Assembly: GCF_040183065.1 (NCBI RefSeq)
Contig: NC_091119.1
Coordinates: 65,644,392 to 65,708,391, forward strand
Origin: Periplaneta americana
Lineage: Eukaryota > Arthropoda > Insecta > Blattodea > Blattidae
Direction: 5' to 3'
Length of the DNA stretch: 64,000 bases
The notes beneath the pieces are model-generated. The model saw only the letters and a list, made by a program, of their open reading frames with translations. It had not been told where the DNA came from and ran no database searches. Shown here piece after piece: positions 4,966 through 62,886 of the stretch (position 1 is its first letter; every line of letters begins with the position of its first letter). The position numbers and the translations under genes are program-made.

Positions 4966-4969
4966 CTTC

Positions 4970-34292: not shown

Positions 34293-35423
34293 TTATGTGA
34301 GTTTCAGTGAGAATGGGTAATTTTTAATGACATTGTGTTTGTCAATACTTCGCTTGACAGTCTCTGGACTGATCAATATCAGCAGACAAGTACATCGAGA
34401 TGCCATTATATAAACTCTTCTCCTATCTTCTGCATCTGCAAAGTCAAAATCTTCATCATCAATAACCATTACAACAACTTTGAATTCAAGTCCCTTTACT
34501 CGAAGTACCCATGGAATTAGAAAATGGTTTGGTTTGCTTGTCAAGATAAAACTCTCCACGTTTGCCAAGCCCTGTGGCATGAATCCTCTGTCTACAAAGT
34601 GTGTCTGTATTTCGTCATTTATAGCATCTGCTTTGTAGCTGCTGTGTACCAGAAATGGCAGAACGCACAGATCATTTGGTTTAATACCTTTGGTGGAACA
34701 TAGATCCACAATGACTGACACCAAAACTTGTAGACAAGATGGTTGACTGTTGCTGTCCACCCAGTAAATCGGAGGTCCATTAATGCTGTGTCCTATGGAG
34801 ATGTCTTGAAGCTTTTGGTAGGCCTCTAATTTCAGTGCAGCAGGCATTCTTGGGATTGGTTCTTGATAAAACTGTTTGAATACCTTATAAATAGTACCAG
34901 TTGATCTGATCACTTTAGTCAGTATTATATCGGGACTTTTCAGAATGTTTGGAGAGTGTTTTGGAAGGAACAGTGAGGCCTGGTTAATGTCTACCAGAAA
35001 CCAGAATACGCCTTGTTCATTGTCACGAACATTGGTGTTTCCCATTTGATAGCGTTTAAATAGTTCTTCTAATGTCTGAGTGATAATTTTTTCTTCAAAC
35101 GACAAACAGAGAGCTTCACATTCATCCATGAATATGTGTTTGTAGCCTTCTTTATTGTGCTTTAAGAATCCTTCAGTGCTGATGAAAAAACGCTGAGTGT
35201 CAACAAATTCAGATAATCCGAGAGCTTCTAGTTTCTTAACAACATCACATCGAATCCCAGGCCAGTAACAGATGTAGAGAGCTCGAGCATCTTTATGTAA
35301 CTGGCCTTCTTCATACAGCTTTTGTAGCTTCCTTATCACAAGTAATGTCTTACCGGTTCCTGCTGCTCCGTGAATTATCAGAGGATTCCCAGTTGACCTC
35401 CGATTTAACAGATCTACCTGTTC
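34293..35423 (-). CDS. helicase exon (last exon)
   Basis: Acceptor TTGCAG precedes 35423 on the - strand. Encodes EQVDLLNRRSTGNPLIIH, GAAGTGKT, IFMDECEALCLSFEEKI, FWFLVDINQASLFLPK (motif III position), VKGLEFKVVVM and RRRVYIMASR, ending YPFSLKLT and a stop. 376 residues in one uninterrupted exon, which implies selection. The frame also runs open upstream into the intron because of a (TTA)n repeat; that part is not coding. Confidence 0.93.
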   Translation of the reverse strand, partial: EQVDLLNRRSTGNPLIIHGAAGTGKTLLVIRKLQKLYEEGQLHKDARALYICYWPGIRCDVVKKLEALGLSEFVDTQRFFISTEGFLKHNKEGYKHIFMDECEALCLSFEEKIITQTLEELFKRYQMGNTNVRDNEQGVFWFLVDINQASLFLPKHSPNILKSPDIILTKVIRSTGTIYKVFKQFYQEPIPRMPAALKLEAYQKLQDISIGHSINGPPIYWVDSNSQPSCLQVLVSVIVDLCSTKGIKPNDLCVLPFLVHSSYKADAINDEIQTHFVDRGFMPQGLANVESFILTSKPNHFLIPWVLRVKGLEFKVVVMVIDDEDFDFADAEDRRRVYIMASRCTCLLILISPETVKRSIDKHNVIKNYPFSLKLT

Positions 35424-35524
35424 CTGCAAATAATTATGACAAACCATACAACTTATTACAATTTCCAAACTTATTAGGCCTATTTGAAAGAATGTATTAC
35501 ATAAAAGCGGTGTATTATAATAAT

Positions 35525-35578
<54 letters not shown>

Positions 35579-38500
35579 CAAAAGAAATGAACATGAGAAA
35601 GCTTTTAAAATTCAATGAGAAAAGGTTACGAGAGACTCGAATATTGAAAGAAGGGGTACAACATTTTACAAGTTGGTTCAAATTTTAAAATATGCCAACA
35701 ACTTAGATGAAGCATTCAGAAACCAAATTCACTATCTCCACTTTCGGTGTAATTACGTGATTAGAAAATATCCTAAGAATAAAATTGATCAGTTGGAAAG
35801 TGATTAACTTCAGCTACATGTAGTTATGCAGATCATAGCATCTGTTATATTTACCGATTACTGTATCGAAACTTCAGAAGTTTTCAACTGTAGCTCCTGT
35901 TTTCTCAGATCAATCTTAGTACGAGGGTCGGTCAGAAAGTAATGCCTCCTATTTTTTTCTCCTTAAATAAGTTGGAAATGTGAAAAATTCGAATTTGGTG
36001 CGATTCCTCGAACCTTCTTCTACAGTCTACTGCAGTAACAGCTTCCTAAGTCAACAGATGGCAGTACTGCATCAGTTTAGAAAATAGCTGATATTGACGT
36101 ACGTATAAGACAGCATGCTGTGATAGAATTCCTGAATGCAGAAGGTGAAATGCTCATTTGCATTCATGAAAGGCCGAAGAAGGTTTATGGAGATGCAACA
36201 GTGGATGTCAGCACTGTTAGACGATGGGTTCGTTGCTGTACAGGGAAAGACTTTTGACTAATGAAACGTGAAGCGGCTGACGACTGCAGTGATTTCATGC
36301 AACATCCAGTGAGTCAACGACATCATTTCTGATGACCGCCGGGTAACAACAGATGAATGAATTGTGTCAGTAAAGGCAGTGTGATGGCTATTATTAATAA
36401 ACTGCGCTACTCTAAAGTTTGTGTATGCTGGTTACCAAAAATGTTGACTGACCAGAATAAAGAAGCAAGGAAAACAATAGCTTTCGATCTGTTGCAGTGC
36501 TTTGTGGAAGGAGTGGAGTTCTTGGCGAAAATTGTGACTGGAGATGAGACTTGGATTCATTTTTTTGAACCTGAGTTCAAGAGGGACAAAAACTTGGCAT
36601 CACACAATGTTGCCAAAAAAGAAAAAAATTCAAAACTGCGATCTACAGGGGAAGTTATGCCGACAGCCTTTTGGGATTTGAAGGGTGTGCTTCTGGTTGA
36701 TGTTTTGGAGCAGAGTGCACAATAAATTCTGTACAATACGTCGAAACCCTCAAGGAGTTAAAGCATGTCTTCAGCAAGTTCGCCTATCAAAACCTATGAC
36801 TGATAATCTTCTTTTGCATGACAATGCAAAACCAAACACCAGTCAATACACCACTGGCGAGATTTTGAAAATTGGTTGGAAAGTCTTGCCTCACCCACCA
36901 TACAGCCCTGACCTAGCACCATCAGATTTCCATCTGTTAGGTCCAGTAAAGGAAGCTCATCATGGGCATCACTTTGAAGATGAGGAGACCTTGAAAAATA
37001 CTATGTGTCAATGATTGAGGAAGAAGGACCGTGATTTTTATTGCACTGCAATATATGCTCTTGTTTCAAGGTGGAAAAAAACTGTGGAAAAAGATGGAGA
37101 TTATATTGAAAAGTGAGAAATTAATTGTGAATGTTGTGGCTGTTGTATTATGTAAATTTAATTTAATTTTCTTGTAAATTAAAAGAGAGAAAAAAATAGG
37201 AGGCATTACATTCTGACTGCTCCTTGTAGAATTAAACAGTTTGGCTTTTGAGTGTGTCATAAAACTGGATGATCAATTCACAAAACTAGACCGCGAAGTA
37301 CAGATGTTGGGACTCAGAATCAGTTAAGGTAAAACAATATATCGTTGTTGTTCCTGCAATAATTGCCATGTTATCGATTTTCAGAATTTTGCTCTATTAA
37401 ATAACTTAAATAGTGATATAGTAAATAATCTCCTATATGTAATTATATTTCTTTCTTTCGAAAATTTAACAATTTATAGTCTCCTATGTACTACTATCAT
37501 AGAATGAATAAATGTTGTTGTTTTCTAATGCCAGGCATTTGACAATAAAGTCATTTGATCTCTTGCACTCCAATATTTTTCAAAGATATTATCATGGCCA
37601 GCCACTGAAGCACAGATTTTGAGGTGTTCCAAATCCATTTCTTGGTTTGAGTTGCACAATGGGCAGTTAGGGGACTGATATATTCCAATTCTATGCAGGT
37701 GTTTGGCCAAACAATCATGGCCTGTTGCCAATCTAAATGCAGCTACAGACGATTTTCGTAGTAAATCGGGAATTATCTGTGGATTTTGATGCAGAGAGTT
37801 CCATTTTTTCCCTTGAGATTGTGTTATCAAATCTTGTTTGTTAAAGTCTAAGTATGTAGATTTCATAAATCTTTTCACAGAGTAAAACGTATGTGAATTA
37901 ATGTGTTTTTCTTTCTACTGAACAATGTTATATTTTGCACATAGGAATTATTGCAGAAACAACGACGATATATATGCAAATAACTGAAAATTCATCAAGA
38001 TTGGAATATCTAGAAGCTAGTTAATAAGTTTGAGAGGATAATCGAATTTAAATACTTGGGAATTTTATTTACAAGTAACAAGCAGAGTGTAAAATTCAGA
38101 TTAGTAATAACCAACAGATGTTAATATGGGTTACAAAAGCATCTAAAGTTACATTGTATAAATATTAATACAAACTATAAATTACTAAAAATATTAATAA
38201 AACACTACAGGGAACAACCCATGCCATGTTGGCGCACTAGAGTATCAGCTAGTATAGGACAGTAGAAGAGATTGTCCACTGCATATTTGTTTGTCTCTCG
38301 AGACGAATTCGTAAGCATTTGAATGCTAAAATAAGTAATGCTCGTTCCTCTTAACCACTTCCGAAAGTAAACATGTGTTTTCTCTGATACATTATTGTTA
38401 CTTTTGTCCATCTCTTACAAAAAAATTTGACGTTATTGTGGGAGTGTAACTCACTGCAAGTGCTGTGCTGCATGCTAGCTGTGGAGCTGGAGAACTAGTA

Positions 38501-39429
38501 CAATACTGCTCCTGTAATATTACAGTCTGCTCTTTAGAGCAATGTTTGCGGTGTATGTGACGTGCATCAGTTACTTCTATCCTTTGAAATCAGTAGGCTA
38601 TATAGTCCCGAAATTTGGCAACATTATCAACACATGGTTGAAAAAATAGGGTTCGAATTTTCTAAAGTTTCATCTCTATAAGATGTCAGTGGTTTATGTG
38701 TTAAATCCGGGTAATCCAATAGCACGCACACGGTTTTTTTTTCTCACTGATGAAGTTCGATTTCCCCTGAGTGACAATGTAAATGCTCAGAATAGTCGGT
38801 ATTAGGATGCCGAAAATCCCAATTTTTCTCATGAAGCCCCACTACATATTATAAATGTTAAATGTTATGTTTTATTTAATGATGCTCGCAACTGCCAAGG
38901 TTATATCAGTGTTGCTACATAATATATCTGGTGTGCAGTTAGAGCATGAAAAATAGTTGGCCCATTTTTTTTTTTTACGAAACAATTATTTCGGAACATT
39001 ATGCGAATGTTTCTGTTTTTATCGACAACAGAATCTGTTTCTTGCCACTTATTAAATTATGCAGTCTCTGGAAAACATCGCTGGAACTTGCATAAACTCA
39101 ACTCATATGACTTCTTCTTTAGTAGTTACGTTTCAACAGGGAAAATGCTTTGCTGTACTATGTATTTAATCATAGTTGAAATCAGGAGTGTATTTGAGGC
39201 GGGCCCTGGTAGCGCCAGAGTACTATTTTTCGTGGCACCAGAGGACTTTTATGATTTTCATATTATTGTGAAATTTTTCATTTCTAAAAAGTAATCATTT
39301 TTTTCATATTTAAACAATTTCATAATGAAGTCTACTCCACAGACCTAACAACCTCTATATCTAGAGTTGAACCCATATATTTTCGTCTGACATTCCAATA
39401 ACTATTCCTGTGGAAATGGTGGTGCTGAA

Positions 39430-39466
<37 letters not shown>

Positions 39467-42400
39467 GTGACGACAATTATGAAGACAACTACTACCAGTA
39501 GTACTGAAATTCCAGAGCCAGGGAACTTTTTTGTTTAGAAATAAACCACTGGTTAAAATACATATTTCTTAATACAGTTCAGATAACTGACTAACTGGAA
39601 ATGAAACATAAAGTTTGAGTAGAATTATACACCAACTCGGGCCAACTGATAAGGAAAAACCCAACTTACTGCCTACCGAAAAGTAACCTCGTGGACTGGT
39701 AAGAATGCTGGTAATTTAGAGTTGACTCATATATATATTTGACAGAGGAGTGATCCACAGGCTTGCACTGCAGCTTGATTCTTATTGTGCTTACCACTTC
39801 TTTTCTGTGAGTGATTTTGTCTCCAAATGGCTGCGCTCTTGTATGTATAATGCATGCTAGACCATGAACGTAACCGGGCTATGGTAATGATGACAATGAC
39901 GCTTGAATTAATGATGGGGAAACGAGTCCGAGGTCCAATGCTGAAAGTTACCCAGCAATTCTGCTTCAGGTGGTTGAGGGAAACCTCAGAAAAACCCCCA
40001 ACCACGTAATTTATCCCAACCAGAATTTGAACTCAGGCCCACTTTTTTCTGCTAACCATTACTCCACAGTAGTGGACTGTATACAGTGTCGTCATGTGGA
40101 CTGTATGCCTTTAGAATGTGACCTGCATAGCAGGTAGAAGTAACGGTCATGGTTTTGATTTTCCCGTGAAACTCAGTTTGAGTAGCCTACTTGCTTCGAT
40201 ATGAGTGCACGTGTTGCGTGTTGAAGTAGGATTTATGAGTATTTTCACTGCAGTATAGTTTGCTAAAGTAATAAGTGATAGAATGATGAAGTGTTGTTAG
40301 TGGCATTATTATGCCACAGTATAAACATACTTAAGAAGAAAGAAATTTTATGTATGATTCTTATGTGAAAACAGATTTGTGCAGAAGTGTGAGGAAGCGA
40401 TTTTTAAGTAAATTTCCTGGTATTCCTGCTCCACACAGAAATAGTGTGCATAATCGTGTTAATAAATTTAGGGCAATGAGATTTGTTATTGATGAGAAGT
40501 CACAAGTAAATCACAGTTTGCTTAGGAGAATCTTGATGAAACTGGAGAAAGATTATAGAGGATTCCAGGTTAAAAAAAAAGCATTGGTTTTATGTATCTT
40601 TCCTAGCATACTGTTCAAGCTCTGTGGTACGGAAGTGTTTTTATGGCAACTGGTCATTTGATGGAATAGCCCTGTATGCTGAATACTTTTTTCTTAACCT
40701 GGAATCCTCTATAGAGTACTTGATGATGAACCTGGAGATAGATTAGAAAAAAGTCCAAAGAAATCTCTGTGATGGCTTGCACAGGAAATAGAAATTTTGC
40801 AAACCTCGGTTTTGAAAGCTACTAAACTTTTAAAATCAATATCACATAAGATGACCATTGTCCAGCAGTTGTAGCTATGTGATAATGTAAATGGCGTAAT
40901 GTCAGTGACGACACAATAAATAATTGAAGGGTTCAGAACCATAGTGGACCAAGCACCATTTACTGAAACCGTAGAGAACAAGGGTTAAAATGAAGTTATT
41001 ACCATAATTCAATGGAAACATATAGCAAGTAATATAAAGTGTACACGTTAAAACTAAACAATATATCAATCTTCATTAAACTATGGTATTCACTTAACTT
41101 TAACCCTTGCTTTCTCCATTTTTAATAAATGGCGCTTGGCCTACTATGGCTCTGAACTCTAAATTTTTTATGGACTAAGCATGGTTCCATTTACATGGCC
41201 ATGTAGTGACATAGAACAACAGGTAAGTACTTATTCGAATGCAGAGAAACCCGATCAGCTGATCTTTTACATGAAACATTACATGAGAAAATCGGGGTAT
41301 GGTACACTATAAATGCATACAGACGGAATAATAAGGCCCATATTTTATGAAAATATCAATGCGCAGAGATACAGGGATAATTTACTCACACCTCTCTTCG
41401 AATAATTATCCGACATTGAATGTCAGTCTGCTGTTTTTCAACAGGACTCTGCTACAGCACATACAGCTGATGACTCATTAACTTTAATTGAGGAAAATTT
41501 GAAGATAGGGTCATTAGTAAATGATTATGGCCAGAACGATTCCCAAATCTTGGTGTATGTACTGTATACAAATAACTCACACACATTGGAAGAACTGAAA
41601 GAGAATATAAGGAGACACATTTCAGAAAATAAACTAATGCACATATGAATGCAAACTTTCCAAAAAAAAAAAGCCAAAAATAATATGGGCAGCAAGAACA
41701 TCATCTCCAACATCGTCTTCGACAAAGATAGGTGATTACTTCATTGTAATTGTGAAATATTTGAATTAAAATAAAGCTATGCTCTTGAGTTGAGAATTAC
41801 ATAGACAGCAGCAGTGTGCTTCCAGCTGCTATTTGGGCCGTGTTCTAATGGCACATAACCCAATCAGGGGCACTGCATATGTATTACAAATTATAAAGAC
41901 AAGGTTTATTGGGAATGTGAACACAGAAACAGACCTCTGAGAATTTACTTTGGGAATGTCAAAGCAAAAACTAAAAACATTGGGTGAATGCGCAGAAAGG
42001 CTTTGGACAGTAGCAGCTCAATATGAGACCTACAAATTTGATAACAGACTGTTATATTATAGCCTCAGGATGATAGATAACAGCATACATTAAGCCATGT
42101 TTCTGAATAAAGAATACCTATTTTATTTTCATGTAAAGATAAGCATGTTTTTAGAAAATAAATGTCGGAAAAATATTTCAGGAATTTTGTATTCTGAAAT
42201 CAGTATGTTATGAAAACTGTCATTAGGACAATTTAGCATAAGGAACATTTTTTCTGGAAGAAAATTCTGTGTTGTATCAAGGATACACCGACACGTAGAA
42301 TATGTCACTAAATTTCGGGAATGAAACTACAGTTGTGTTTCGGTTTATAAATAGAGAGCATGGGTCCATGATAAGAAGTACAGTAATTAATATGTCGTTG

Positions 42401-45400: not shown

Positions 45401-46377
45401 CTAGTACCTATAGTGTAAGTTGGCCATAAAAGTACAAGCATTGCAACATTCTCAGTTAGTGCTGGGCATATAAACTATCCAAGTTGCCACCCATTTTTTT
45501 ATACTAATATTGCATATTTTATTAGTCATTCACCCATAAAAAGCCAATTGTGTAGATCAATTTACCAACAGAGTCGTTGCCCAGAGGAAGCTGATCTACT
45601 CTACACCCATGATAAGATGAGATGATGATGATGATGATGGTTGTTGAGATGACACAGAGGAACCGGAACTCCTGGATCATGGACTTACCCAACAGAAAGT
45701 ACCGTACAAGTACAACAAGCATTTCAACATTTCCAGTTGTATTAGAATTATTTTATTTAACAATGATTTCAACTGCAGAGGTTATTCAGTGTTGAAATTC
45801 GATGCTGACGAGCTGTGGGTCACTGAGGAAAATCAATTAGTGTATAAGAGATTTAAATTGGTTCCACAAATGCAAGCCAAGTGAATTTAGGTCCAGAATT
45901 AATGGATAATCAGTACTCATTGGGTCGTGGAGGACCCATTTTCTGAGCTGTGCACTTCCTGGGCCAGAATGTATCTGAATTTTCCTAGTCTAACAATTTA
46001 TTTATTCAATACCAATTGAAAACGTTTAATTTCTTCAGTGTGTAGAACTAAGTTGCCAACAAATTCGTTAAGACAGCCGGAATATTTTAACAAATTAGAA
46101 GTTCTGTTAGAGACCTAGTAGGCCTATTGAGACACGATGTGGCTCTTTGGAGAAATTCATGCAGAGATAAACATATTGTTATTGGAACCCGAAAACAACT
46201 TTAATTTAGAATCAAAGATATTTTAGTCATAAGTTTATATGAATTTTTCTTCTTCTTTTTAGATCCTGAATCCGTCTTCGAAGTATATTCCATATGTTAT
46301 GAAAAACATAAATGCACACTCTCCCTCTACTTCCCTTCCCCTCTCCACATATCTCTGCCCGCTCTCGATGTACATGC

Positions 46378-46436
<59 letters not shown>

Positions 46437-50013: not shown

Positions 50014-50077
<64 letters not shown>

Positions 50078-53000
50078 TACTCAACATTTTAAATACCGAT
50101 AATGTAAATTGTAAACAATTATTTTAATAATAACCCCCCCTCCCTATTTTGACAAAATTCTGCGTACGCTTCCGGTTTACTGTCACAATTTAATGAGTTG
50201 AAAATATTAGCACTGCGTCTCTTGAAGATATAGAATAATTCTCATAATAATGGTCAAGTCATGTTAGAATCAAAACCTGTGCTATTGTAAACAACAAATT
50301 TCACATATTGCTTTACTGCGTCATATGCATTGTTGTCTAAGTTATCTGAAATCGACTTTTCCCTCTTACTGTCTACATACAAAAAATGTAAGAGTAGTCT
50401 ATAAGAGTGAAGTATAAAATTGGAATAATACTCGTACAAAAAGTTCTAATTGTTCCACAATACTAGAATTAAGGCTAAAAAATTCCTTTGTTCCATGACT
50501 AAAAGTTTTAGATAAAGAATTGGGAGAGGATTAGGTCTTCATGCCTTAGCCCCCATAGACATTCGCTCTGTATGTTACAATACCTTACTTTAGATTCGGT
50601 TGTAATTTACTCCTGAGTACGACATACGCTCTTACCTCTTGAATAACAAATTCCAATGCTTTCCATCAATAGGTGTTCCATTTTGAAGAATCTCGCTTTT
50701 GAACCATTCCTTAAAGTTTGCTGGAGAATTCAATATGTTGGAAAACACATGCATGCCGCCATCTTCCTTCCATCTTGAAATAATTTTATTTTGTGGATCT
50801 TTGGTTGTGGGAGATAAATATGGCCAGAAGATGTAGCAGTTCAGATTATCGTAGGAGTCACTCTCTAAAAAATAAACAAAATTATATACACTCGGTACAA
50901 TATAGTTTGAAATTCTAACAAACTTAGTTTTCTATTAGGGGACGGTACGGTACCATGTAGAGGCAGTAAGGAATACATAAAAAGAATATACAAATACTAC
51001 AATAGGCCTATACAATAATACAATACTGCAGAAAATATCGCATAAACATAGGGAAAATAAGGTTTGCATCATAAGACAAAATTAATACGATTTTCTCTTA
51101 CATCCTCCCATTCTATTTTCTCTCTCTCCCACTCTTCCACACTCCCACCCACCATAGTTCCACTTTTTTCTTTTTCCGTACCTCTGTATTCTCATTATTA
51201 ATCATATTTCTACACTATATTCTACATAGCTATCTACTTAATCATTAATAGACAATTTTACTAACCATGCCGATAACAAGACTCGAACCACCGACCTTTA
51301 CTTCTGTACTTTATTGCCTTTATAGCCCTTTATAGCCTTAACCATTAGACTATACGAATAAATACGAACTCGTCGATTACACATATGAATATTAACCTTT
51401 TCATGAAACCTTCTAAAATCATGATAAGCCGAACACTTAACGTTGTCATATCCTGGCAGGAAATACAAACGCCACTCCGAAATTTGTCGCAACATCGCCA
51501 CATACCTTCTTCAATAACAACTTATCACTACTTTACTATTCTTTTCTCGTAAAAACAGTGTTGCTAAGATTCATATTTCGTTACATCACGTCATAAAGCA
51601 TATTTAGGCCTACATCATTCATAACCACATCGAACTATGTACAGTACCAGGAAAAAGTAACGGGCAGCCAAATTTTACTATTCCAGATACAACACATTGC
51701 GTACCGGTATGTATAGTAAACAAGAGTGCCTGTATATGCTGTACCGGTATGTTACTTGTTAACAGTCGTGCAAAAGAAATAAACAGTTGGATTTGTATTG
51801 CTTGTTGTATGAGCAGGTAGTACACCAGACATCCCTGGTGTAAAGGTAAACTGAGAGATGAAAAATTCGCTACAAATATTAATTCAAATAATACTCGTAC
51901 TTTCGGAGTTTACTAATTCGGTCCCATCGTCAAAAATATATACTAGTTCGGTCCAGAGCCAAGAAGTAAACAATACTAGTTCAGTCCCGGGTCATTAGGC
52001 TAAGTTAACAGTACTAATTCGGTCCCGGATCGAAAATAGATCAGTACTGGTTGGAAATCAACATTTTCCTTGCCATTCTATGCAGGCTTAGGACTGTCAT
52101 AAGGTAGGGACGGGTAAATTTGTGACTCGAGACAGCTAGTTCATAATATATACTGTACCAACATCAAAACATTCAGTATCGATATCATACCAACACGAAA
52201 ACATGTCGGATTCAATACGACAGCTAGTTCATAATTAGGGCTATGAAAAGGGAGCAGTTAAAGCTAGTGATGGTACCGTCTGTATCGCTGCTTACGTCAA
52301 GTTGTAGGGGAAACACTCTGTATATAAGCTTACTGTACCAACATCAAAACACGTCATTATCGATATCATACCAACATGAAAACATTTCGGATTCGATACG
52401 ACAGCTAGTTCATAATATTATACTGTATCAACATCAAAACACGTCAATATCGTTATCATACCAACATGAAAACATTTCCGATTCGATACGACAGCTAGTT
52501 CATAATATTATACTGTATCAACATCAAAACACGTCAATATCGATATCATACCAACATGAAAACATTTCGGATTCGATACGACAGCTAGTTCATAATAATA
52601 TACTGTATCAACATCAAAACACGTCAATATCGGTATCATACTAACATGAAAATATTTCGGATTCGATACGACAGCTAGTTCATAATATTATACTGTATCA
52701 ACATCAAAACACGTCAATATCGGTATCATACTAACATGAAAACATTTCGGATTCGATACGACAGCTAGTTCATAATATTATACTGTATCAACATCAAAAC
52801 ACGTCAATATCGGTATCATACTAACATGAAAATATTTCGGATTCGATACGACAGCTAGTTCATAATATTATACTGTATCAACATCAAAACACGTCAATAT
52901 CGATATCATATCAACATGAAAACATGCCGGATTCGATACGAAAGCTAGTACAGTCTCTTTGATATATGAGGGGCTCACAACCAGAGTGGACCAAGTCCAC

Positions 53001-56000
53001 CAGTGATCAATTTGTGGATTAATACAATCTCGGATGAAGAAAACTTAGATTTATTCATTGCCATAACAAACAAAGTCCATAATCCATTTGTTACTCCACA
53101 GAGCGCAGCATTTCCTATGGAAGGTCAGAGTCCGTGGATATACAGAGTAGCGCAATCACCGAGTCGGCCGCCATTGTTAGTCCTTTTCAACACGCTAGGG
53201 ATAGGAATATTTGAAGTAAAACTCAGATATTTTTAATTTGAAGGGCAAAAACGTCTAAAGGATCTTCTCACATTATAGAACATTATTATCAGTCAACATA
53301 CTAATGCATAAAAACTTCATTTAATAATTATTACAGCATAAATACGCATTTAAGTGTTCAATATACTCCTTCATAAACATCACAGTTATAGGTATTACAG
53401 CAGCATGAACTTAATAAATTACAAGTAACAAATGAAAACAACAATTTTGCAAATAAAATAACAATAAATCTAAACATTTCCAACTGCATTCCTCGTGCAA
53501 ACTCTCCGGCTTCCGCATATAAGGGCACACACTATACTGAAATTTCTCGAAGTTTATTAGTTTTAAGAGTTCACAACAGTGAAACCAATAACTACCATAC
53601 TTACGAAGCTAGATTCACCAAATTTTGATCACTGGTACTTATATCTGCTTAATAGTGACAAGTGTACAAAATTGCATCCGCCTATGATACGTGGTTCGCA
53701 GTTTATTAATTACTGTATTAAAATATTGAACCGCTTTATATAAAAAGTCGCACTACAATTGACATTATTCTTAAGTGATTTTCACTTACATGGCTCCTTA
53801 CATACATGGAATCAAAGCTTACTATAAGATTTTGCTGTAAAATTAATAAGTAAATTGCTAGAATTTTTTAATAAATAAAAAAATTAATAGTCATAAAAAT
53901 TCCTAGTAATTTACCCATTCGCTGTACAGAAAATTCCAATAGTAATGTTTGTTCCAATGTATATAAAGAATCTTATAAGTGAATATAAATGGAAAATAAT
54001 GTAAATTGTGACGCAAGGGACTTTTTGCATTAAGCAATACACTATATAATTAAGTTATTAATAAAGTGCAAACCACTTATCATAGAGAGAGACGAAAGTT
54101 TGTACATGTGTTATTATTAACCAGATATACTAGTGATAAACATTTTGTGAGTTTAGCTTTAAAAGTATGGAAGTTAGTAATTTCATTATAATGTCCCCAA
54201 GGATACACTGATGTGAGATTTTGTCATTTTTGGTAAACAAATCGTTTCTTTGTTTTTATCTTTAAAAATTCATTTATGATCTAAAGATGCCCTCTGCCAA
54301 TTTTCATGACCATACGACCGGTCTATCAGCTGTTTAGGGTCACGTTTTAAACGGCTGCGGGCTCTGACTGTTAATTTAAATTCTCCGTCCACGATCTCCA
54401 CTCTGAATTCTGCTACCATTTTGGAAATTCCGCTATATTTCATACATTATTTATTATATTAGATTTCCGATTGAGCCAGAGTAGCTTCTCGACTTCTCGA
54501 AATATTTCTTCATAGAATACAAAGGTGTTAGACCTACTTCAAAGGCTGCTTTCCTTTAAAAGATATTCAGTTACACAGGAGAGCACAACTCTTATCTAAA
54601 GGAAAATTCCACGTGTTGCTAGTAGCCATAACAACGTGTTTTCCATGCTTGGTTTTTGTTTGTGATACAAGAAATATTTGCAAGTTTCTAACAGTTTTAT
54701 TGTTAATGTTATAATAGTGTCTATAGTCCATAGTGATTTGTAAATAATATTTATCTATTATAGTGTTTTCTAAGATTACATAATTTTTTAGTCATCTCTA
54801 TTTACTAATGTAGATTAGGTGTGCACAGCGTGGTAGTGTATATAAGGATAAGTTCTGTATATAATATGATAGTTCTATATGTTTCAAAATGCCTAGAAAA
54901 TAAAAACAGAGACCTGGTTAATTATTATTATCCCGAACTTTTGAAGTCAATTTTCTCCACTTTAATTTTCTGTAAATTTTGCATTGCTAAAAATGCTACT
55001 CTTTCTACAGATTCTGTACTACATGCATGATTTTTTGTAGAGGTTTTTGAATATGTTCTTACAAAACTAACACTCATTTTTTTGTTGTTCTTGTTGTTTA
55101 GTCAATTGTCCGAAGACAGATTTGAACCTCATAAGTACCACCAATAAGGCATCACTCATGAGAAAACTAGGCCAGGAGATAATGGGGTAGGGTGGCAATT
55201 TTCTTTCCCCCTCCAATGCATACTTCGCCGATTAGCTACATATTCCACTAGTCACACTTCAGATACTTACAAACAATTTTCTTCCTCTGACACATATCGT
55301 CAAGTGAGATGTACTGCCTGTTTATATATTCTGTGCATATCAGCCAGAAGAGGTGTTTTTTAATATTAAGTTTTTTACGCTCGAGTTGAATTTTTCTGTT
55401 TTTACACTTTTAATGCATTAAATATGTTTAATTATTTTTTAGTAAAATAAAGAGAAAATTGTATAGTAAGTTTCGTTTCTGAAGGTCTGACACGTATGTA
55501 GACAAAAATTCTGGCCAAAATAGTAGCAATTTTTGAAAACCTAAATTTGCATAATTTAAAATTACAAATTAAATGTACAAAATTTCATAGATCTACTTAG
55601 AATAGTTTAGAAAATTGAAATTTCACATCAGTCTAACCTTAATAGGGTTTCTAGTTTCTACGTTCTTTGTATTTTCTAATCGAGCCAAACAATACAATCT
55701 TGTCTCAAGAATAAATTCAGAACTTCACAAATATATTATGTCATTCTTGCAAATAGCAAATAGGATTAAATTCAGAAATGCTTGATTTGAAAGGGAGAAG
55801 ATGGTAAAAATTTGACACTGATACTAATTGATACGCGACTTTCATTTGTTTTATGTAGAAATATCATTGCTGAATCAACTTAAATTCTAGAAAATTCTAT
55901 AAAAATATTTTGGGGCCCAAATTTTGAAAAAATAAATATCAAAATACAGTCATTCATTAATCTCACAATGTATGCTCGCTTAGGTAGCGGATCGTTCCTT

Positions 56001-57087
56001 TTTATATTTATAGTCACTTCTTTCCTTTTTCCTTATTTCTTTCACCTTGTCACAGAGAAAACAAATGTGCGCTTGTTTCAATTCTCTGTGAACAGTTCTG
56101 AACACAGTAGCATTGCATTTTTTTCGCATTTAAATTACATTCTTTCCCTATGCAACTGTATACTGCATAGCGCGCGCTGGACTAACAATGGCGGATTTGT
56201 CGGCATTTGCCGGCTCAAACGAATGCGGTACTCTGGATATCCACGGACTCTGTGGAAGGTGAAGGTTGCTAAGCGTGAGCCAGGAACTTTAAGAACTATC
56301 CAGATGGACTTGGTCCACTCTGGTTGTGAACCCCTCATATATAACTAGTTCGGACCGAATTAGTACTGTACCTTTCTGAACCCCGGATCGAATTAGTACT
56401 GTACCTTTCTGAACCCCGGATCGAATTAGTACTGTACCTTTCTGAACCCCGGATCGAATTAGCACTGTACCTTTCTGAACCCCGGATCGAATTAGTACTG
56501 TATATTTCAGGTGTGTATCTGATGGGACCGAACTGAGTTCGGTCCCCTGACTCCGTACTTTCACGTTTGGAGTGGATGGTATATTAATAGACACAAAAGG
56601 CATTCTTGCTAGTGGTTTCCCTTTTCACACTCAAGCATCTTTCTCTCAATTCAGACAATCGTAAGGGAAGTCACTGGACAATATGGAAGCTTAAGTACAG
56701 CATGATTTTATTCCAAATAGTTTTTGGATTTCCTGACCCTCACTGCGTTACGTCATGGATCATGGGAATAACTATAATGTGTTTGTCGATTTTTGGAATG
56801 AGCTATGCTATTAACATGACACAAGATAGCTGGTTGACATAATTCGGGTTAAATACAAGAGGAAGAGGCAAAGTCGTAATTTTTCACATCAACATTTCTG
56901 TGCGCTTACCTAATTCCATATTTGACTGCAGCATTTCTACATGGTCCCGCAGTTGGTGCTGTGCAGAGCGTTTACTATTCTTTATCATTTTGGCGTCACT
57001 CATCTTCAGTCCATTCAAACATGAATCAGACGTAGACTTCACTTCCACTAGAGTTACATGTTTCTTACCTGAAATGTAGTTTGCTTA

Positions 57088-57174
<87 letters not shown>

Positions 57175-60100
57175 GATATTTGTGTTTTTAAATGTATTGT
57201 ATGTTTTTCAATGTATCTGTGACAAAGTCTACTGTATTTCTAATGGCCTAATAAATTAAGTTGTCATAAATTATTACAAACACCCACAATAGTTACGATA
57301 TTATTATGACGTGAGGCGAGAAAACGGTGAGCAACTCGTGGCCCACTGCTAGCGGGATTTCCGGCGAGCGCGTAACCATTTCTCCGGCACTTCTACAATA
57401 CATAGCAGTACTAATAATACAAATTCAATAATTTGGAATTACCATGCTCACAGTCTTGCTGAAAATGGCCCCCATTTGCCGTCAGACACAATTGACATCT
57501 TCTGATAAACGAATGAACAACACTCTGAAGTCCACATCATTGATAGCTTGGATTTCTTCTCGTATATAGTATTTTAGTTCATCTATAGAATGAGGATTCT
57601 TTCTATAAACCTTACCTTTTAGTGTTCTCCATAAATAAAACTCACAGGTTGTTAGATCTTGACTTCGTGGAGCCCACACATTATTACTTATTAGTCTCGT
57701 ACCAAAAACACGCCATAATTCCCTCATTGAGAATTATAATTTGTTGGTAGGCATTGCCTAAATACACAGTGATCACTAAACTTTATACACTAACTTTGTA
57801 CACTTGAAGAATCAAGACTTTTGTAACATGACTTGTGACTACAGCGAATGCCATATGGCGACTGAGGATCTACTACGCTGCACCTCTAACAGCCCGCGCA
57901 TCGCAGACCGCGCAGGAAGCGGTTCGTAGTAACCCGCCGTCTTCTCGCCTCACGTCACAAAAATGTCTCTGTATAAGACTACTATGCCGTCTTTATAAAT
58001 TCTTGGGCCCATTTCTCTATAGTAATTGCGCACCACCATTAGCCGTTAAAATTTTACGGACATCCGTTTCATGTGCAGGCAGCGCATTTTCGTTCCCAAA
58101 CGTACGGCGGATCGAGTAGTTTCTTCTGGTAGCTATATCTATTACGTCACGTGAATTGCAAGCAGATACGCATGGGGTCATTAAATAACAATGATGTAAT
58201 ATATTATAAATATGCTCCTGTAACGTCATGTGAAGTAGAAACAACATTCTCTTAATTTAAACAAATTTTATGTGATGTTCGTAAATGATATGCATTTCAA
58301 ACCTCAGAATATATGTTTTCGTTTACTGCAACGGAATAGGTTTTGATAAATTAATTATTTGTATATATTGTATAAAATATAAATATTGATAATTTGTATA
58401 TTGATTTTTGTTATTCTTATTTTGGCCCTGTAACGTCATGTGACGTAGGAAGAACATTTTCTTAGCTTAAACAAATTTTTACTGGCAGTTATAGTAGAAG
58501 ATATGAATTTCATAATCTCAGAATATATACATGTTTTTGTTCACCATAACGGAGTTGATTTCGTTAAATGAATTAATTGAATATATTATATATAGAGTAT
58601 TTACAGTTAATATGTATCATGTTTACTATTATGTTCTAAATATAGTAGGCCCATACTTATATACTCGGGTGTTGTTTCGATTTCAGCTTGGGCTGATTAC
58701 CTGGCTTGGATTTTTTCCGAGGTTTTCCCAATCGCTAGGCGAATGTCAAATAATATATGGCGAATCTTAGGCCTCATCTTACCAAATACCATCTCACAAT
58801 CACAAATACCATCTACGCTAAATAAGCGTTGTTAAATAACCAACAAATAAAAAAACACTGTAATGTTTACAAACATTATTGTGGCAACATGAATACTTAT
58901 ATTAAAGAAGACAAAATGATTTGCCATGGACCCTAAATCGCTTTAGAATGAATAGCTATGGTTTACCAATACGACAAAGAGAGCAATCTGACTACACACA
59001 TTAAGGTTTGTATCGGCCAGAGAAAACGTTTTCGGGCGTTGCTTTCTGTATGAAAATTTTTCATATTAATCACTTCTGTCAAACCTAAAAGTTTGTAATA
59101 AAGTGAATGAAACACTTTGTATAAGCTGCAAAATATATCCAGAATGTAGCTCAGAATATGCAAATGATCATTATTTTCTTGTTTATTGTTATTGTGTTAA
59201 AATAATACTAGCCTTTGTATACTGTGAACAAGACGTAGTCATGTTCTCTTATCATTAGCTTTCCATTTCTTTCATTGCGAAATGATTTTCCTCCATAACT
59301 TCTTCCTTGAAAGAAGACCATCCACATTCCAGGGATGTTGAGTTCACTCAGGTATTGGAAAACATGTTCTTCTGCTTGACTTGCCTGAAACGTAAGATAA
59401 TTTGGTGTTTATACGAAACACGGATCATATGCGAAGACTAAGAGGAAGGCAGAAAATAAGAAAAATTGGAAAATGGTGAGTTTGCAGTGACAGGTGGGCC
59501 ATCCTGCCTCAAGCCCCTGATAGAGCCAGGTCCCGTTTCGCGGAAGAATAGCCTGATAAACCTCAGGGGCTCAAAAATAACCAACAAAATAAAAATAATA
59601 AATAAACCAAAAAAGCTCTTCTTGATCAGTCGACGCTGACAGGTGGGCCAGGGCCACCCTGCCTCAGTCTCTGATAAGCTAGGTCCCGTCCGTATGATCC
59701 CAGGGACTCGGAGCCTCCAAGCCCTTCCTATATCAGCATCGGAAACTCGTACTACTTCCAAGACTTTACCCAGCCCATTTTTACTATTACTGATGATATA
59801 TGAAATGAGGGGGGAGGTGAGTACCTCGAGAAAAACATTCTGCAAGTCTGCTTTGTCTACTAGAAATTCCATCACGATCTGGCCAGGGATTGAACCCTCA
59901 CCACCTGGATGGAAGACCAGCGCTCTAGTAGCTACTACCTACATTTTAGACATATTTTATATCATGTATGCAGGATTAACTAGTAAGTATGACATTTTTG
60001 GAAAGGGAAGTAAGGCAAAAAGTTCCGGTCTACATATACGTATTTTAGGGACGTAAACGAATTGTATCAGTGTCTGAATGAAAGTGCCCCAGGCAACATT

Positions 60101-62886
60101 GTCGGCGGTCATTTCTGTGCTATCAGTGTTACGAGTCCAGTATCGTATAAAAGTGGAATTGACTGACGTGTGTACACTCATGGAAAGCAAAAATGGCTAC
60201 CTTAGAAACGTTTTCATAACGGGCATGCAGTGCAGCTGTACCAAAAATTTGCATCATAGGCTACTATATTGATAGTTCCACATGTTGTTTTCCCTCCCAC
60301 GCCTTTAGAACGAACTTCACTCTGTTTTGCCGTCATCTATTTCTAATTTCTAATGCTATGACTCACGATACTTCCAAACACACGAATTTAACAACGAATA
60401 AAATTGCAGATGCACCCTATTTGTTCACCGCGAATACATATGGAAAGGACATTAGCAAAGAATTGTTACCGTAGTGTGTCGTAGCTCAGTGGTATGTTTG
60501 ACTTACCTACTAAACAGAAATCACGGTGTTTGATTCCCTTTGATTCCCATTTATTGTTTGATATTTTTTAAGATTTTTTTTTACGTGATATTAATCTTAT
60601 TCCACTATCGCTGCCGTAACGTTTTCCTAGATTATGTCTTTTAGTAGTCTATGCCATTTAAGTAACCGAAACAAAAAACACACATGATGTACTATAAAAA
60701 ATCTCATATATGTCTGACTTTGCATCGGTGTGCTTCTGAGCGACCCGCTTTTTATGGTGCATTTCTTGTTGTTAGCAATCAGTAGTTCCTTTTCCTCTTG
60801 AGTTGACGAGATTTTAACTTTGATAAAAATAGAACAATAATGTATACTTAAGTGACAATATGATCAAATAAAGATGATAACTTACTCTGAATTGATAATG
60901 CCAATTTTACTTTAATAGCTTTCCTTATCGAATGATTTTGTCTGTACTTCCTGGTGTATTACGTAAGATATGAGATTTAAAGATTCTTCCTCCATTTTCC
61001 ATGTTCAAACTCCATAAGGATAAAAAATGTTAATGAGTTATGTCCTGTCTTTCGTTCATAGTTATAAAAATTATTATAGAAATTCAGTTATTAAATGTAT
61101 GTAGCCTAATCTTTTTATAGTCTACTCATTATATTTTAATTTATTTAATTTCTTATTCCGTCGTTAATCTTTTCATAATATTATCGTTATGCAATAATTC
61201 TACATGAAAAAATTCGAAATAGACTTTGAGTTTAATTGAAAGAAAAACAAATTTTAGTTAGACTCTGTAAATTATTATTAGATAGTCAGTCAGGCAGTCA
61301 GTCAATTAGTCACACAGTCAACAATTAATTCAGTCAGACAGCCAATCAGTCAATTAGTCAGTCAACAATTAATTCAGTCTGATAGTCAGTCAGGCAGTCT
61401 GTCAATTAGTCACACAGTCAACAATTAATTCAGTCAGGCAGTCAGTCAATTAGTCAGTCAGCCAACAATTAATTCAGTCTGATAGTCAGGCAGTCTGTCA
61501 ATTAGTCACACAGTCAACAATTAATTCAGTCAGGCAGTCAGTCAATTAGTCAGTCAGCCAACAATTAATTCAGTCTGATAGTCAGGCAGTCTGTCAATTA
61601 GTCACACAGTGAGCAATTAATTCGGTCAGACAGTCAATCAATTAGTCACACAGTCAACAATTAATTCAGTCAGACAGTCAGTCAATTAGTCACACAGTCA
61701 ACAATTAATTCAGTCAGAAGTCAATCAGGCAGTCAGTGAATTAGTCAGCCAACAATTAATTCGATCAGATAGTCAGTCAATTACACTGTCAGCCAACAAT
61801 TAATTCTGCGTCATAGCCAGTCAGGCAGTCAGTAAATTAGTCAGTCAGCCAACAATTAATTCATTCTGATAGTCAGTCAGGCACTCAGTAAATTAGTCAA
61901 CCAGCCAACAATTAATTCAGTCAGACAGCCGGTCAGCCAACTAAGTCAGGCAGTCAGTCAGTCAATCAGTAAGTCAGCCAACAGGTAAGTCAGTCAGGCA
62001 GGCGTTAGTCAATTAGTCAGCCAGCCAACAATTAATTCAGTCAGACAGTCAGTTAGCTAAGAAATATGTCAGTCAGGCAGTCAGTCAGTATTACCTTCGT
62101 ATATGTTACTGGATTATTGGTGTTATCGTTGTTGTTATGAATAGTTCAATTTGATTAAATAATTTTTTCTGTATTTGACATTAGTATGAACACAACAAAC
62201 ATTAGATATGGGACTACAGTTGTTTTACCGCCAAGTGCCGACTCATTCATATTCTCAGTATATGTTGTGTAAGAAGACAGTGTTATCTGAGAAGCATCCT
62301 GTGCTTCAGATAAGCAGATTGAGTTATTTCACAATTTACAGTATTATCACGTTTTAATACCTAACATATTAAGATACTCAGAGGAATACCATTGAGATCC
62401 TTATTCATCGGCCCTAGCCTGTATATTTCTAAATTTGCGAATAGATAACCGAATAATTCTCTTAATTTAAAATAGACAGGCGTCACTCATTTCTATTACT
62501 TCAGAAACAAGACATAAATTTCACGATCTCTCTCATGTACTGTTTTTAAAAGTGCCTTGTCAATTTTGAACATAAAATTTGTTGTATTAAAATTTAAAGA
62601 AGAAACTCGTTTTGTCTTAAGAGAGATCCAATAATGTTTTCTCCAAAATGGACAAACTATTTTTCAAAGTTTGGGTGCGTTCGTAGTTAGCATAAAGCAA
62701 GACAAATAGACAGGGACGATTAGATTGCAGGCTGTTCTCTCAGAATTTAACTACAGACGTAACCTAGTGACTTTTATGTTAGCCATGATTCTTACCTGTA
62801 GTTCTGATCTTTGAATAGGTTGTTTTGGCACACTATATATGGTACATGTCTGTCCTTCCAAGCGTGGAAACTCCTGTCCAATATAT
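34293..62886 (-). CDS. NERD-like nuclease / UvrD-like SF1 helicase protein, six 3' exons
   Basis: Spliced on the - strand: 62886-62796, 59384-59213, 57068-56910, 50864-50636, 44968-44899, 35423-34293 (1852 bases, 616 residues plus stop). All junction phases agree. Numbered from the first full codon, residues 34-45 (QAEEHVFQYLSE) form a helix with conserved acids; D79 and E96-V-K98 (VTLVEVKST) form a PD-(D/E)XK core of NERD type. A linker with EIHNGMLALLSQEQVDLL leads into Walker A GAAGTGKT (259-266), Walker B HIFMDECEA (336-344), motif V VKGLEFKVVVM (549-559) and motif VI RRRVYIMASR (574-583). This is a UvrD-type SF1 helicase pattern. Nuclease-helicase fusions act on nucleic acids; the role here is unknown. 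The N-terminus lies beyond the window. I do not recognise a named gene; Schlafen-like proteins are an alternative reading for the helicase half. Confidence 0.85.
35515..35578. repeat. (TAA)n microsatellite in intron
   Basis: About 20 TAA units, roughly 90 bases upstream (in gene direction) of the helicase exon acceptor. Confidence 0.95.
35922..37226 (+). mobile_element. mariner transposon, near full length, dead
   Basis: 1.3 kb with inverted ends containing GTAATGCCTCCTATTTTTTT, flanked by TA (35920-35921 and 37227-37228). The transposase shows the helix-turn-helix part (HAVIEFLNAEGE...DVSTVRRWVR), then GDETWIHFFEPE, HDNAKPNTS and HPPYSPDLAPSDFHL, the mariner DD34D triad. Several in-frame stops in the first third and frame changes make it inactive. 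Located in the intron before the last helicase exon. Confidence 0.9.
37512..37889 (-). mobile_element. RNase H LINE, 3' end copy
   Basis: Same family as 21658-24150, read on the - strand. It keeps the C-terminal Cys/His region (SPNCPLCNSNQEMDLEHLKI) that is frame-shifted in the longer copy, then SVAGHDNIFEKYW and the (CAA)n tail at 37512-37520. Heavily 5'-truncated. Confidence 0.9.
37890..39425. other. intron sequence, nothing recognised
   Basis: AT-rich; short frames (38205-38411 and 39001-39294) carry no motif that I know. Confidence 0.5.
39426..39475. repeat. (GAT)n microsatellite
   Basis: GATGAT run with minor interruptions. Confidence 0.9.
39850..40078 (-). mobile_element. tRNA-derived SINE, second copy of the 27092 family
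   Basis: On the - strand: CTGTGGAGTAATGGTTAGC, then B-box-like GAGTTCAAATTC, then ACGTGGTTGGGGGTTTTTCTG and GCTGGGTAACTTTCAGC. Each block has a counterpart in the + copy at 27092-27350. Confidence 0.8.
40556..40711. mobile_element. 156-bp MITE inside the DUF4817 transposon
   Basis: Inverted ends TAGAGGATTCCAGGTTAA at both sides with TA flanks. It interrupts the transposase-like frame between the DUF4817 part and the RLEKSPKKSL part. Confidence 0.75.
40929..41158. mobile_element. 230-bp MITE inside the DUF4817 transposon
   Basis: Left end GGTTCAGAACCATAGTGGAC and the complement of the right end, GAGTTCAGAGCCATAGTAGG, align. An inner AAGGGTTAAA block is also inverted. The terminal motif resembles the ends of the 3.4-kb element at 52966-56343. 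Confidence 0.7.
41741..42770. other. intron sequence, nothing firmly recognised
   Basis: AT-rich with scattered short frames. A possible retroelement-like stretch near 41880-42050 is too weak to call. Confidence 0.4.
42930..43140. other. CpG-containing segment of unknown origin
   Basis: Richer in G+C and CpG than its neighbours (for example GCCCGCCTGCCGGACGGAAG). Frames on both strands are open but match nothing that I know. Confidence 0.3.
43180..44600 (+). mobile_element. decayed hAT-superfamily transposon (ZMYM1-like)
   Basis: Pieces of a hAT transposase with the TTF-type zinc-finger front end: CISWFTKKSWLTVSDEKQSL, FYFYCLLSGGKGLW, DLKHLREHIKK (43288-43470), then ADETTDITWKNQFIILRYIK (about 43890-43950), LIARAYDGA (about 44090) and VNYDFNVREF (about 44315). 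The order fits ZMYM1-like hAT transposases. Many stops and frame changes are present, and a 26-base poly(T) run (43971-43996) interrupts it. Ends not identified. Confidence 0.75.
44601..44898. other. intron sequence
   Basis: Nothing recognised between the hAT remnant and the next exon. Confidence 0.5.
44899..44968 (-). CDS. nuclease-helicase exon (linker, 23 codons)
   Basis: On the - strand, acceptor TTACTTAG precedes 44968 and donor GTAATTAA follows 44899. Encodes FVILSCGVIVDEIHNGMLAL then LSQ. It completes an Arg codon from the previous exon and ends in phase 0, joining to EQVDLLN of the helicase exon. Too short for ordinary ORF listing. Confidence 0.85.
44970..46378 (-). other. intron sequence
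   Basis: AT-rich; a GAT/ATG microsatellite lies at 45613-45640. No element ends recognised. Confidence 0.5.
46379..46450. repeat. (TAA)n microsatellite
   Basis: About 23 TAA units with one AGT interruption, directly beside the mitochondrial fragment. Confidence 0.95.
46480..46658 (+). pseudogene. nuclear mitochondrial insert (NUMT), ND1 start
   Basis: From 46542 the frame, read with the insect mitochondrial code, gives an initiator-like ATA ATG and then IFGLFIIFILLVIF and GVAFLTLLER (ending 46655), the almost invariant start of NADH dehydrogenase subunit 1. Mitochondrial-like T-rich codon use (TTT, TTA, ATT) supports organelle origin. The match stops abruptly after ...GAGCGT. The preceding bases may come from the neighbouring mitochondrial tRNA region. 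It lies in an intron of the nuclease-helicase gene. Confidence 0.85.
47186..47588. repeat. possible 0.4-kb inverted-repeat element
   Basis: TGCGAATTAA near 47188 and its complement near 47574 point inward with G-run/C-run neighbours (GGGGTGGGGGGG and CCCCCCTCCCC). The inverted ends are short and no duplication is clear. Confidence 0.4.
47600..48783. other. intron sequence, nothing firmly recognised
   Basis: Somewhat CpG-rich around 48100-48190. A GTGACCAGACGTCC motif at 48571 recalls ends of dispersed repeats, but I found no partner end. Confidence 0.35.
48784..49364. mobile_element. 581-bp MITE with TA duplication
   Basis: Inverted ends CTGGGTGTTCA followed by a similar TTCAAAGTGTGTCATG block, flanked by TA (48782-48783 and 49365-49366). 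The interior is richer in CpG than its surroundings. TA points to the Tc1/mariner superfamily. The frame at 48893-49135 is not supported. Confidence 0.8.
49370..50635 (-). other. intron sequence with microsatellite
   Basis: Contains GTTTTCGCC...TTTGATTGGCATCTTCAGG (49503), reminiscent of transposon ends, and a (TAA)n run at 50017-50073. Nothing else recognised. Confidence 0.45.
50636..50864 (-). CDS. nuclease-helicase exon (76-codon linker)
   Basis: On the - strand, acceptor TTTTTTAG precedes 50864 and donor GTAAGAG follows 50636. Encodes ESDSYDNLNCYIFWPYLSPT, KIISRWKEDGGMHVFSNILN, SPANFKEWFKSEILQNGTPI and HWNLLFK, starting and ending in split codons that fit both neighbours. It probably forms the C-terminal part of the nuclease fold or a linker. 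Confidence 0.88.
50866..51890 (-). other. intron sequence, nothing recognised
   Basis: AT-rich sequence with short frames lacking motifs. Confidence 0.5.
51897..52060. repeat. cluster of ACTARTTCGGTCC motifs, left side
   Basis: Four copies of ACTA(A/G)TTC(G/A)GTCC at about 30-35 base spacing. Inverted relatives occur at 56342-56560, so the two clusters bracket the satellite and the long-TIR element. Confidence 0.7.
52130..52955. repeat. 90-bp satellite, about eight to nine units
   Basis: Regular from about 52330 to 52955 (for example CATAATATTA at 52411, 52501, 52681, 52771, 52861) with few differences between units. A diverged first unit at 52140-52240 is separated by about 90 other bases. 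The period is divisible by three, so the repeated frame at 52243-52644 is an artefact. Confidence 0.93.
54270..54419 (-). CDS. small ORF of unknown function inside the long-TIR element
   Basis: 49 codons starting MVAEFRVEIVDGEFKLTVRA, rich in charged residues (RSRLKRDPKQLIDRSYG follows), with richer G+C and CpG than the very AT-rich surroundings. I do not recognise it. It could be a captured host exon, a remnant of the element's own gene, or chance. Confidence 0.25.
   Translation of the reverse strand: MVAEFRVEIVDGEFKLTVRARSRLKRDPKQLIDRSYGHENWQRASLDHK
55088..55350 (-). mobile_element. SINE-like repeat with (AAC)n tail, copy 2
   Basis: Diverged copy of the 30005-30273 unit, same orientation, nested in the long-TIR element. 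Shared blocks include TGTCCGAAGACAG and GAGATAATGGGGTAGGGTGG. Confidence 0.85.
56345..56560. repeat. 33-bp tandem repeat with inverted TTCGGTCC motifs
   Basis: Four units of GGATCGAATTAGTACTGTAC plus CTTTCTGAACCCC, followed by GGGACCGAACTGAGTTCGGTCCC, itself palindromic. It mirrors the cluster at 51897-52060. Confidence 0.85.
56561..56909 (-). other. intron sequence
   Basis: No feature recognised before the next exon boundary. Confidence 0.5.
56910..57068 (-). CDS. nuclease-helicase exon with the EVK catalytic motif
   Basis: On the - strand, acceptor TTTCAG precedes 57068 and donor GTAAGCG follows 56910. Encodes KKHVTLVEVKSTSDSCLNGL then KMSDAKMIKNSKRSAQHQLR and DHVEMLQSNMEL. EVK, with the upstream HD in the previous exon, makes the D...ExK signature of PD-(D/E)XK nucleases. 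The following A...QL..H helix is typical of NERD-type folds. Confidence 0.85.
57086..57172. repeat. (AAAT)n and (AT)n microsatellite
   Basis: About twelve AAAT units followed by an AT run, just inside the intron next to the acceptor at 57069. Confidence 0.95.
57307..57956 (-). mobile_element. deletion derivative of a DDE_3 transposon
   Basis: Inverted ends TGACGTGAGGCGAGAA on both sides. Between them, on the - strand (57727-57482), the last 80 codons of a transposase remain: FGTRLISNNVWAPRSQDLTT, CEFYLWRTLKGKVYRKNPHS and IDELKYYIREEI, the SPDL..C.FYLWG..K..VY pattern of the DUF4817/DDE_3 family. The rest of the gene is missing, as in internally deleted copies. Confidence 0.75.
57960..58670 (-). 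other. intron sequence, nothing recognised
   Basis: Two similar segments (58215-58260 and 58430-58480) share CCTGTAACGTCATGTGA and ACAAATTTTA, suggesting a local duplication of about 220 bases. Confidence 0.45.
58676..58855 (+). mobile_element. truncated tRNA-derived SINE
   Basis: A decayed B box (GTTTCGATTTC) is followed by the core ATTACCTGGC..GGATTTTTTCCGAGG TTTTCCC shared with other SINEs here. The tail is AAATAACCAACAAATAAAA. Confidence 0.65.
59213..59384 (-). CDS. nuclease-helicase exon (nuclease start), GC donor
   Basis: On the - strand, acceptor GTTTCAG precedes 59384. Encodes ASQAEEHVFQYLSELNIPGM, WMVFFQGRSYGGKSFRNERN and GKLMIREHDYVLFTVYK. The donor is GC (AAAG|GCTAGT), not GT. 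The 172-base length and split Gly codon fit both neighbours only with this site. The next GT choice would create a stop. HD here supplies the first catalytic Asp of the PD-(D/E)XK core. Confidence 0.8.
59440..59630 (-). mobile_element. SINE fragment
   Basis: Contains GACAGGTGGGCCATCCTGCC, matching the 3' part of the neighbouring SINE, followed by sequence ending AAATAACCAACAAAATAAAA like other SINE tails here. Confidence 0.55.
59631..59945 (-). mobile_element. tRNA-derived SINE
   Basis: On the - strand a tRNA-like head with TAGCTACTAGAGCGCTGG (A-box region) and a perfect B box GGTTCAATCCC (near 59890), a body, and an end GGCCCACCTGTCAGCGTCG. It lies about 250 bases upstream (in gene direction) of a nuclease-helicase exon. 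Confidence 0.75.
60478..60548 (+). pseudogene. tRNA-like remnant
   Basis: TCGTAGCTCAGTGGTATG (A-box region), then GTGTTTGATTCCC (B-box-like) at tRNA-like spacing. The stems pair poorly. Probably a SINE head or tRNA pseudogene. Confidence 0.45.
60550..61280 (-). other. intron sequence, nothing recognised
   Basis: AT-rich. Confidence 0.55.
61283..62092. repeat. AGTC-rich minisatellite
   Basis: About 0.8 kb built from (CAGT/AGTC)n with AACAATTAATTCAGT recurring every 40-60 bases (for example near 61320, 61364, 61420, 61468). The unit is irregular, suggesting repeated slippage and unequal exchange. Confidence 0.9.
62100..62795 (-). other. intron sequence, nothing recognised
   Basis: AT-rich, no motif. 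Confidence 0.55.
62796..62886 (-). CDS. nuclease-helicase exon (first one in the window)
   Basis: On the - strand, acceptor CATTGCAG precedes 62886 and donor GTAAGAA follows 62796. Encodes YIGQEFPRLEGQTCTIYSVP then KQPIQRSELQ, ending in phase 0 and leading directly to ASQAEEHVF. It begins inside a codon, so at least one more exon lies beyond the window on the right. Confidence 0.8.

Follow-up and report, generated by a model that had tools for sequence, protein, structure and literature searches.

A Periplaneta americana gene, present twice in the assembly, that probably joins a NERD-like nuclease to a Schlafen group III-type helicase

Introduction

The closest described counterparts of the gene reported here are found in vertebrates and in bacteria. 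Schlafens are antiviral nuclease-helicases, and one review gives Schlafen-like genes as occurring in mammals, in poxviruses and in a small number of vertebrates besides mammals (PMC8875196); Schlafen-family RNases are also placed in bacteria (PMC12839542). Bacterial NERD-helicases, such as RTasNERD-Hel of DRT loci, Nhi and STM2767 (e.g., Sphingomonas naphthae WP_273691980.1), carry a NERD nuclease followed by a superfamily 1 (SF1) helicase in one chain, and NERD is listed for Mokosh type I and Nhi-like systems (PMC10952713). Among the matches listed from the open-licence literature, no title or abstract described an animal NERD-helicase. Here, we analyzed 64,000 nucleotides of the cockroach Periplaneta americana (GCF_040183065.1, NC_091119.1, positions 65,644,392 to 65,708,391; the whole stretch is called the window below), which holds a spliced gene on the minus strand from position 62886 down to 34293. 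We read it, with a probability of about 0.7, as a host gene present in two copies in the assembly that encodes a NERD-like PD-(D/E)XK nuclease and a C-terminal Schlafen group III-type SF1 helicase in one protein.

Results

Gene structure and reading frame

Splice reconstruction within the window yielded six minus-strand exons with matching phases, as the initial annotation had proposed, and a frame of 616 residues ending in a stop codon. Exon 1 (62886-62796; residues 1-30) is entered in phase 1, adjoins an ATT microsatellite and is followed by the donor GTAAGA. The nuclease is divided between exon 2 (59384-59213; residues 31-88), which holds its first half with E35 and D79, and exon 3 (57068-56910; residues 88-141), which holds the second half of its core with E96-V-K98. 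Exon 4 (50864-50636; residues 141-217) encodes an FWP motif at residues 153-155 and a linker, exon 5 (44968-44899; residues 217-240) a pre-helicase segment that aligns with the matching segment of Schlafen 5 (SLFN5), and exon 6 (35423-34293; residues 241-616 plus the stop) the SF1 helicase. GT-AG borders are found in four of the introns, whereas the fifth, after exon 2, requires a GC donor (AAAG at the exon end, GCTAGT beyond it). Because a SLFN5 match (residues 209-436) spans the exon 4/5 and 5/6 junctions, a weak NERD match spans the exon 2/3 junction, and a second genomic copy keeps the exons and the borders that were compared, the six-exon gene is, judged from sequence, more than a product of chance.

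Over 50.7 kb on the upstream side of exon 1, a simple thresholded splice-site scan printed 20 candidates for the 5' exon, but none was convincing and no start codon came to light. In the bacterial NERD-helicase P0002, 12 residues precede the position that aligns with residue 31 here, and the missing N-terminal piece is therefore probably short. The missing 5' end and the GC donor of exon 2 weigh against our reading, and would suit a decaying or nonfunctional locus in which the exons look intact and the gene is unexpressed or incomplete; transposon-like frames and microsatellites seen by eye in the introns would suit it as well. However, the 1,851 coding bases contain no internal stop or frameshift in either genomic copy, as expected from the earlier claim that no exon is broken, and the catalytic residues are kept. 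The two copies differ at 5 of these 1,851 bases (3 silent, 2 amino-acid changing), which is too few for measuring selection. We regard a decaying locus as very unlikely and the gene as probably working.

The second copy and the segmental duplication that holds it

The assembly comprises 3.23 Gb in 91 contigs; its size, the introns of the gene and the transposon-like frames seen by eye are in keeping with an animal. In this assembly, a protein search that retained the best candidates found exon 6 only in the window and at one site about 735 kb away. Exons 2 to 5 were paired likewise, with eight matches forming four pairs in a search of the same assembly. The second copy keeps all six exons, exon 1 by a separate comparison, as well as the borders that were compared.

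Both copies lie in a segmental duplication. Its window part covers positions 19103-64000 and it runs to about 90954 in the coordinates of an extended window; the partner block, at C3:64927543-65004283, holds the second gene copy. The main aligned pieces are 98.0-99.3% identical, gaps included, and the largest, of 33 kb, has 168 mismatches (about 0.5%). The compared stretches contain no N, and the second copy may be an assembly duplicate. A 736-kb tandem repeat was considered as the source of the second copy and rejected, given that seven sampled comparisons gave no match over 400 bases and that the duplicated block has edges. The second copy also carries about 5.5 kb (C3:64960619-64966085) that the window copy lacks, adjoining a repeat array at window positions 52148-52952.

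A NERD-like nuclease in the N-terminal part

For comparison, 80 bacterial loci were used out of 92 found; after filtering by length and for Walker A, they supplied 51 N-terminal parts and 52 helicase parts. Against a profile of the 51 bacterial NERD parts, the N-terminal part scored 9.9 bits and ranked first over its own reverse and 2,000 shuffles (maximum, 5.8), and hhalign gave 33.1 over residues 27-135, where 150 shuffles reached at most 24.6. The residues that the initial annotation had named as catalytic (D79, E96 and K98) are present and stand in register with the bacterial rows: D79 falls on D in 50 of 51, and E96 and K98 fall on E and K in 48 of 51 each, so that the earlier description of intact catalytic acids holds. 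E35 falls on E in 46 of the 51 rows, and P155, in exon 4, on P in 45; Q124 has no match. A Pfam match to SduA_C (E 0.047) is weakly consistent with a PD-(D/E)XK nuclease, and one to RAE1_2_domI_C (E 0.0076) was taken as chance.

Several results count against this assignment. Searched alone, the N-terminal part reached 13.9 bits (E 0.08, residues 33-140) with the Pfam NERD model (PF08378), below the cut-off of 22.1, and NERD was not listed among the Pfam families for the whole 616-residue protein. NCBIfam, PADLOC and PHROGs listed no family for the nuclease part, and the hhalign probability was only 56%. A two-sequence MAFFT alignment with P0002 put D79, E96 and K98 out of register, and BLASTP against P0002 returned no nuclease match. 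The exon 4-5 linker, compared with the bacterial linker in 46 of the 51 rows, scored 10.8, whereas the highest score among 100 shuffles was 17.85. The N-terminal part is supported by profile alignment, in which real scores beat shuffled ones and the key residues stay in register, as a NERD-like nuclease of putative PD-(D/E)XK fold that falls below formal NERD membership.

Elsewhere in the assembly, the only reported match to the NERD model was an intronless frame of 123 residues (L001, C85:981610-981798; 35.8 bits), which we take to resemble a YraN/UPF0102-type protein. The bacterial-looking contig that carries it, C85, is likely a symbiont or contaminant.

An SF1 helicase with Schlafens as its nearest solved relatives by sequence

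Exon 6 encodes the full series of SF1 motifs, with K265 in Walker A, D340-E341 in Walker B, D385/Q388 in motif III, R413 in motif IV, KGLEF at 550-554 in motif V and R583 in motif VI. GAAGTGKT (259), DECEA (340), VKGLEF (549) and RRRVYIMASR (574) all lie where they had been placed. The earlier description of a NERD-like nuclease joined to a UvrD-like helicase stands as regards the order of the two parts in the spliced gene, but the solved sequence relatives of the helicase are group III Schlafens rather than UvrD. When the PDB was searched with the protein alone, every match at E up to 1 was a Schlafen (SLFN5, 2.3e-7; SLFN11, 0.002) and no UvrD-type chain appeared, which sets the protein apart from the SF1A helicases UvrD, Rep and PcrA. 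An exon of 376 residues would also leave little room for the 1B and 2B insertions of SF1A helicases, elements that SLFN11 is reported to lack (PMC9482658).

Other observations on the helicase count against a Schlafen-type assignment. The Schlafen helicase model PF09848 reached 13-14 bits at Walker A, short of its cut-off of 24. The predicted structure is nearest to UvrD, nearer than to Schlafen, when the top 1,000 Foldseek hits are realigned, and UvrD, AddAB and FBH1 all match it well. In the alignment behind this model (A4), which includes 38 of the 52 bacterial helicase rows, the Walker B of the window protein does not line up with the bacterial Walker B, and the model is poor in that region, its confidence (predicted local distance difference test) falling below 50 at 80-100 and 109-116. 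The two Walker B motifs also fail to line up in a smaller alignment (A5).

The predicted fold would also suit a housekeeping helicase-nuclease for DNA repair or recombination, broadly similar to Dna2 or AddAB, rather than an immune effector, and the occurrence of just two near-identical copies, with no large family among the best candidates retained by the search, would be in keeping with this. Yet sequence matches to such helicases are weak: a profile reaches PcrA at E 0.043 and AddA at E 0.37, the protein as sole query retrieves none with E up to 1, and the nearest families are defense or Schlafen proteins. We consider a housekeeping role unlikely.

Schlafen and bacterial affinities

As in the group III Schlafens (SLFN5, SLFN11, SLFN14), the nuclease module lies on the N-terminal side of the helicase, and homology to these proteins begins about 30 residues ahead of the helicase. 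The helicase N-lobe shares 28-32% identity with that of SLFN5, the value varying between alignments. A tree built from 56 N-lobe rows groups the gene with the three Schlafens; support is 94/92, or 89.5 after SLFN14 and two long rows (L092 and L095) are dropped. Walker A and B are 73 residues apart, a spacing intermediate between those of SLFN5 (63) and SLFN11 (61) and those of the bacterial helicases, and below every bacterial row (79-124 in 52 of 52); no value was available for SLFN14.

These likenesses do not make the gene a Schlafen proper. A NERD-like nuclease stands here in place of the AlbA-type core, and that core (PF04326) was not among the 14 Pfam families listed for the 616 residues of the model, which lacks the 5' end; the SWADL linker motif was likewise absent from the 616 residues when searched as a regular expression, with the pattern as given in PMC8875196. 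Because neither was found, the gene is, by its predicted make-up, classed outside the Schlafens proper.

The same comparisons bear on an origin by horizontal transfer, in which a bacterial NERD-helicase (of the Nhi, STM2767 or DRT-associated type) passed to an animal ancestor and gained introns later, the Schlafen likeness being no more than general SF1 likeness. The domain order is identical to that of the bacterial proteins, RTasNERD-Hel is the best family model for the protein, and a global profile alignment with bacterial NERD-helicases, forced end to end, covers the whole protein at 18% identity. By BLAST, two bacterial proteins scored above SLFN5 (L042, from Chloroflexi, 65.1 bits over 383 residues; L041, 56.6 bits; SLFN5, 55.5 bits over the 221-residue fragment available). 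The Schlafen grouping in the tree has support below the mark of the tool, the end branch of the gene is very long (3.42), and constrained placements with three bacterial sets were not rejected (approximately unbiased test, p-AU 0.264, 0.172 and 0.395). The Walker A-B spacing of 73 is closer to the shortest bacterial value than to that of SLFN5, and none of the seven N-lobe DNA contacts of SLFN11 is kept (0/7; contacts as listed in PMC9482658). The points from the BLAST scores onward weigh against a Schlafen-type helicase. Transfer is opposed by the tree grouping itself and by a spacing below the whole bacterial range. It is also opposed by N-lobe identity, which is higher to SLFN5 (27.6%) than to L042 (24.0% over its whole match), and by the lack of a close relative in one genome-contig and one viral-contig scan, both with the helicase alone as query. 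The bacterial proteins further differ in that the gene here is spliced. On balance, we find horizontal transfer rather unlikely and favor the Schlafen group III-type helicase.

No orthologue was seen outside this genome, which also counts against our reading. A tblastn search of phages gave no relative at E up to 0.01, and one of plasmids gave four weak matches at E up to 1. Within the assembly, PF09848 reported no helicase above its cut-off, a weak negative since the gene in the window was missed too. The sole AlbA-type Schlafen domain (PF04326) reported there is an open frame of 80 residues (L107 1453-1695, C8:87894738-87894938; 29.5 bits against a cut-off of 25.3), which is probably one exon.

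Surroundings of the gene

Mariner-like transposase fragments were recognized by eye in the introns, at window positions 36357-37014 (plus strand) and 57482-57733 (minus strand). Positions 1-8900 hold long pyrimidine-rich minisatellite stretches, with units of about 20, 46, 205 and 412 bases and spurious long open frames; between 4001 and 8000 the GC skew is -0.42 and the AT skew -0.58. Fragments of reverse transcriptase, endonuclease and RNase H frames resembling long interspersed nuclear elements were seen by eye at 2230-3952, 12052-12507 and 22044-23849.

Discussion

Two catalytic modules with intact residues share one predicted chain, and we therefore propose a mechanism in which the motor feeds the nuclease. 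The helicase part would bind single-stranded nucleic acid, and its intact Walker A and B motifs would permit ATP hydrolysis and movement along, or remodeling of, that nucleic acid. The ATP-driven motor could then position, load or feed the bound DNA or RNA to the metal-dependent nuclease, which would cut it. The protein would thereby work much as a Schlafen does, with a different cutting module.

A comparable pairing is known from Gabija, where GajB acts with a separate GajA nuclease. The UvrD-type helicase model of GajB matches the window protein at 5e-8, whereas in the window protein a nuclease-like part is fused to the helicase.

Such activity would most likely serve in the surveillance of nucleic acid that is foreign or damaged, such as that of a virus, a transposon or a stalled fork. 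This suggestion draws on analogy: bacterial proteins with the NERD-helicase layout fall among defense-protein families in family model searches, and vertebrate Schlafens couple a nuclease to the same type of helicase. An immune or anti-transposon role is a somewhat less than even prospect.

The two modules of group III Schlafens are apparently separate in this genome, with the helicase on contig C3 and the AlbA-type exon on contig C8. Their separation permits an origin of Schlafens by a swap of NERD for AlbA. The gene might, then, keep an architecture ancestral to the vertebrate Schlafen helicase, namely that of an animal NERD-helicase in which the AlbA-type core subsequently took the place of the nuclease, although we hold this idea to be doubtful. 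A nonvertebrate Schlafen-type helicase joined to a bacterial-style nuclease would give a concrete source for the Schlafen helicase, and the gene would be a tractable subject for the study of nuclease-helicase coupling and of antiviral or anti-transposon roles.
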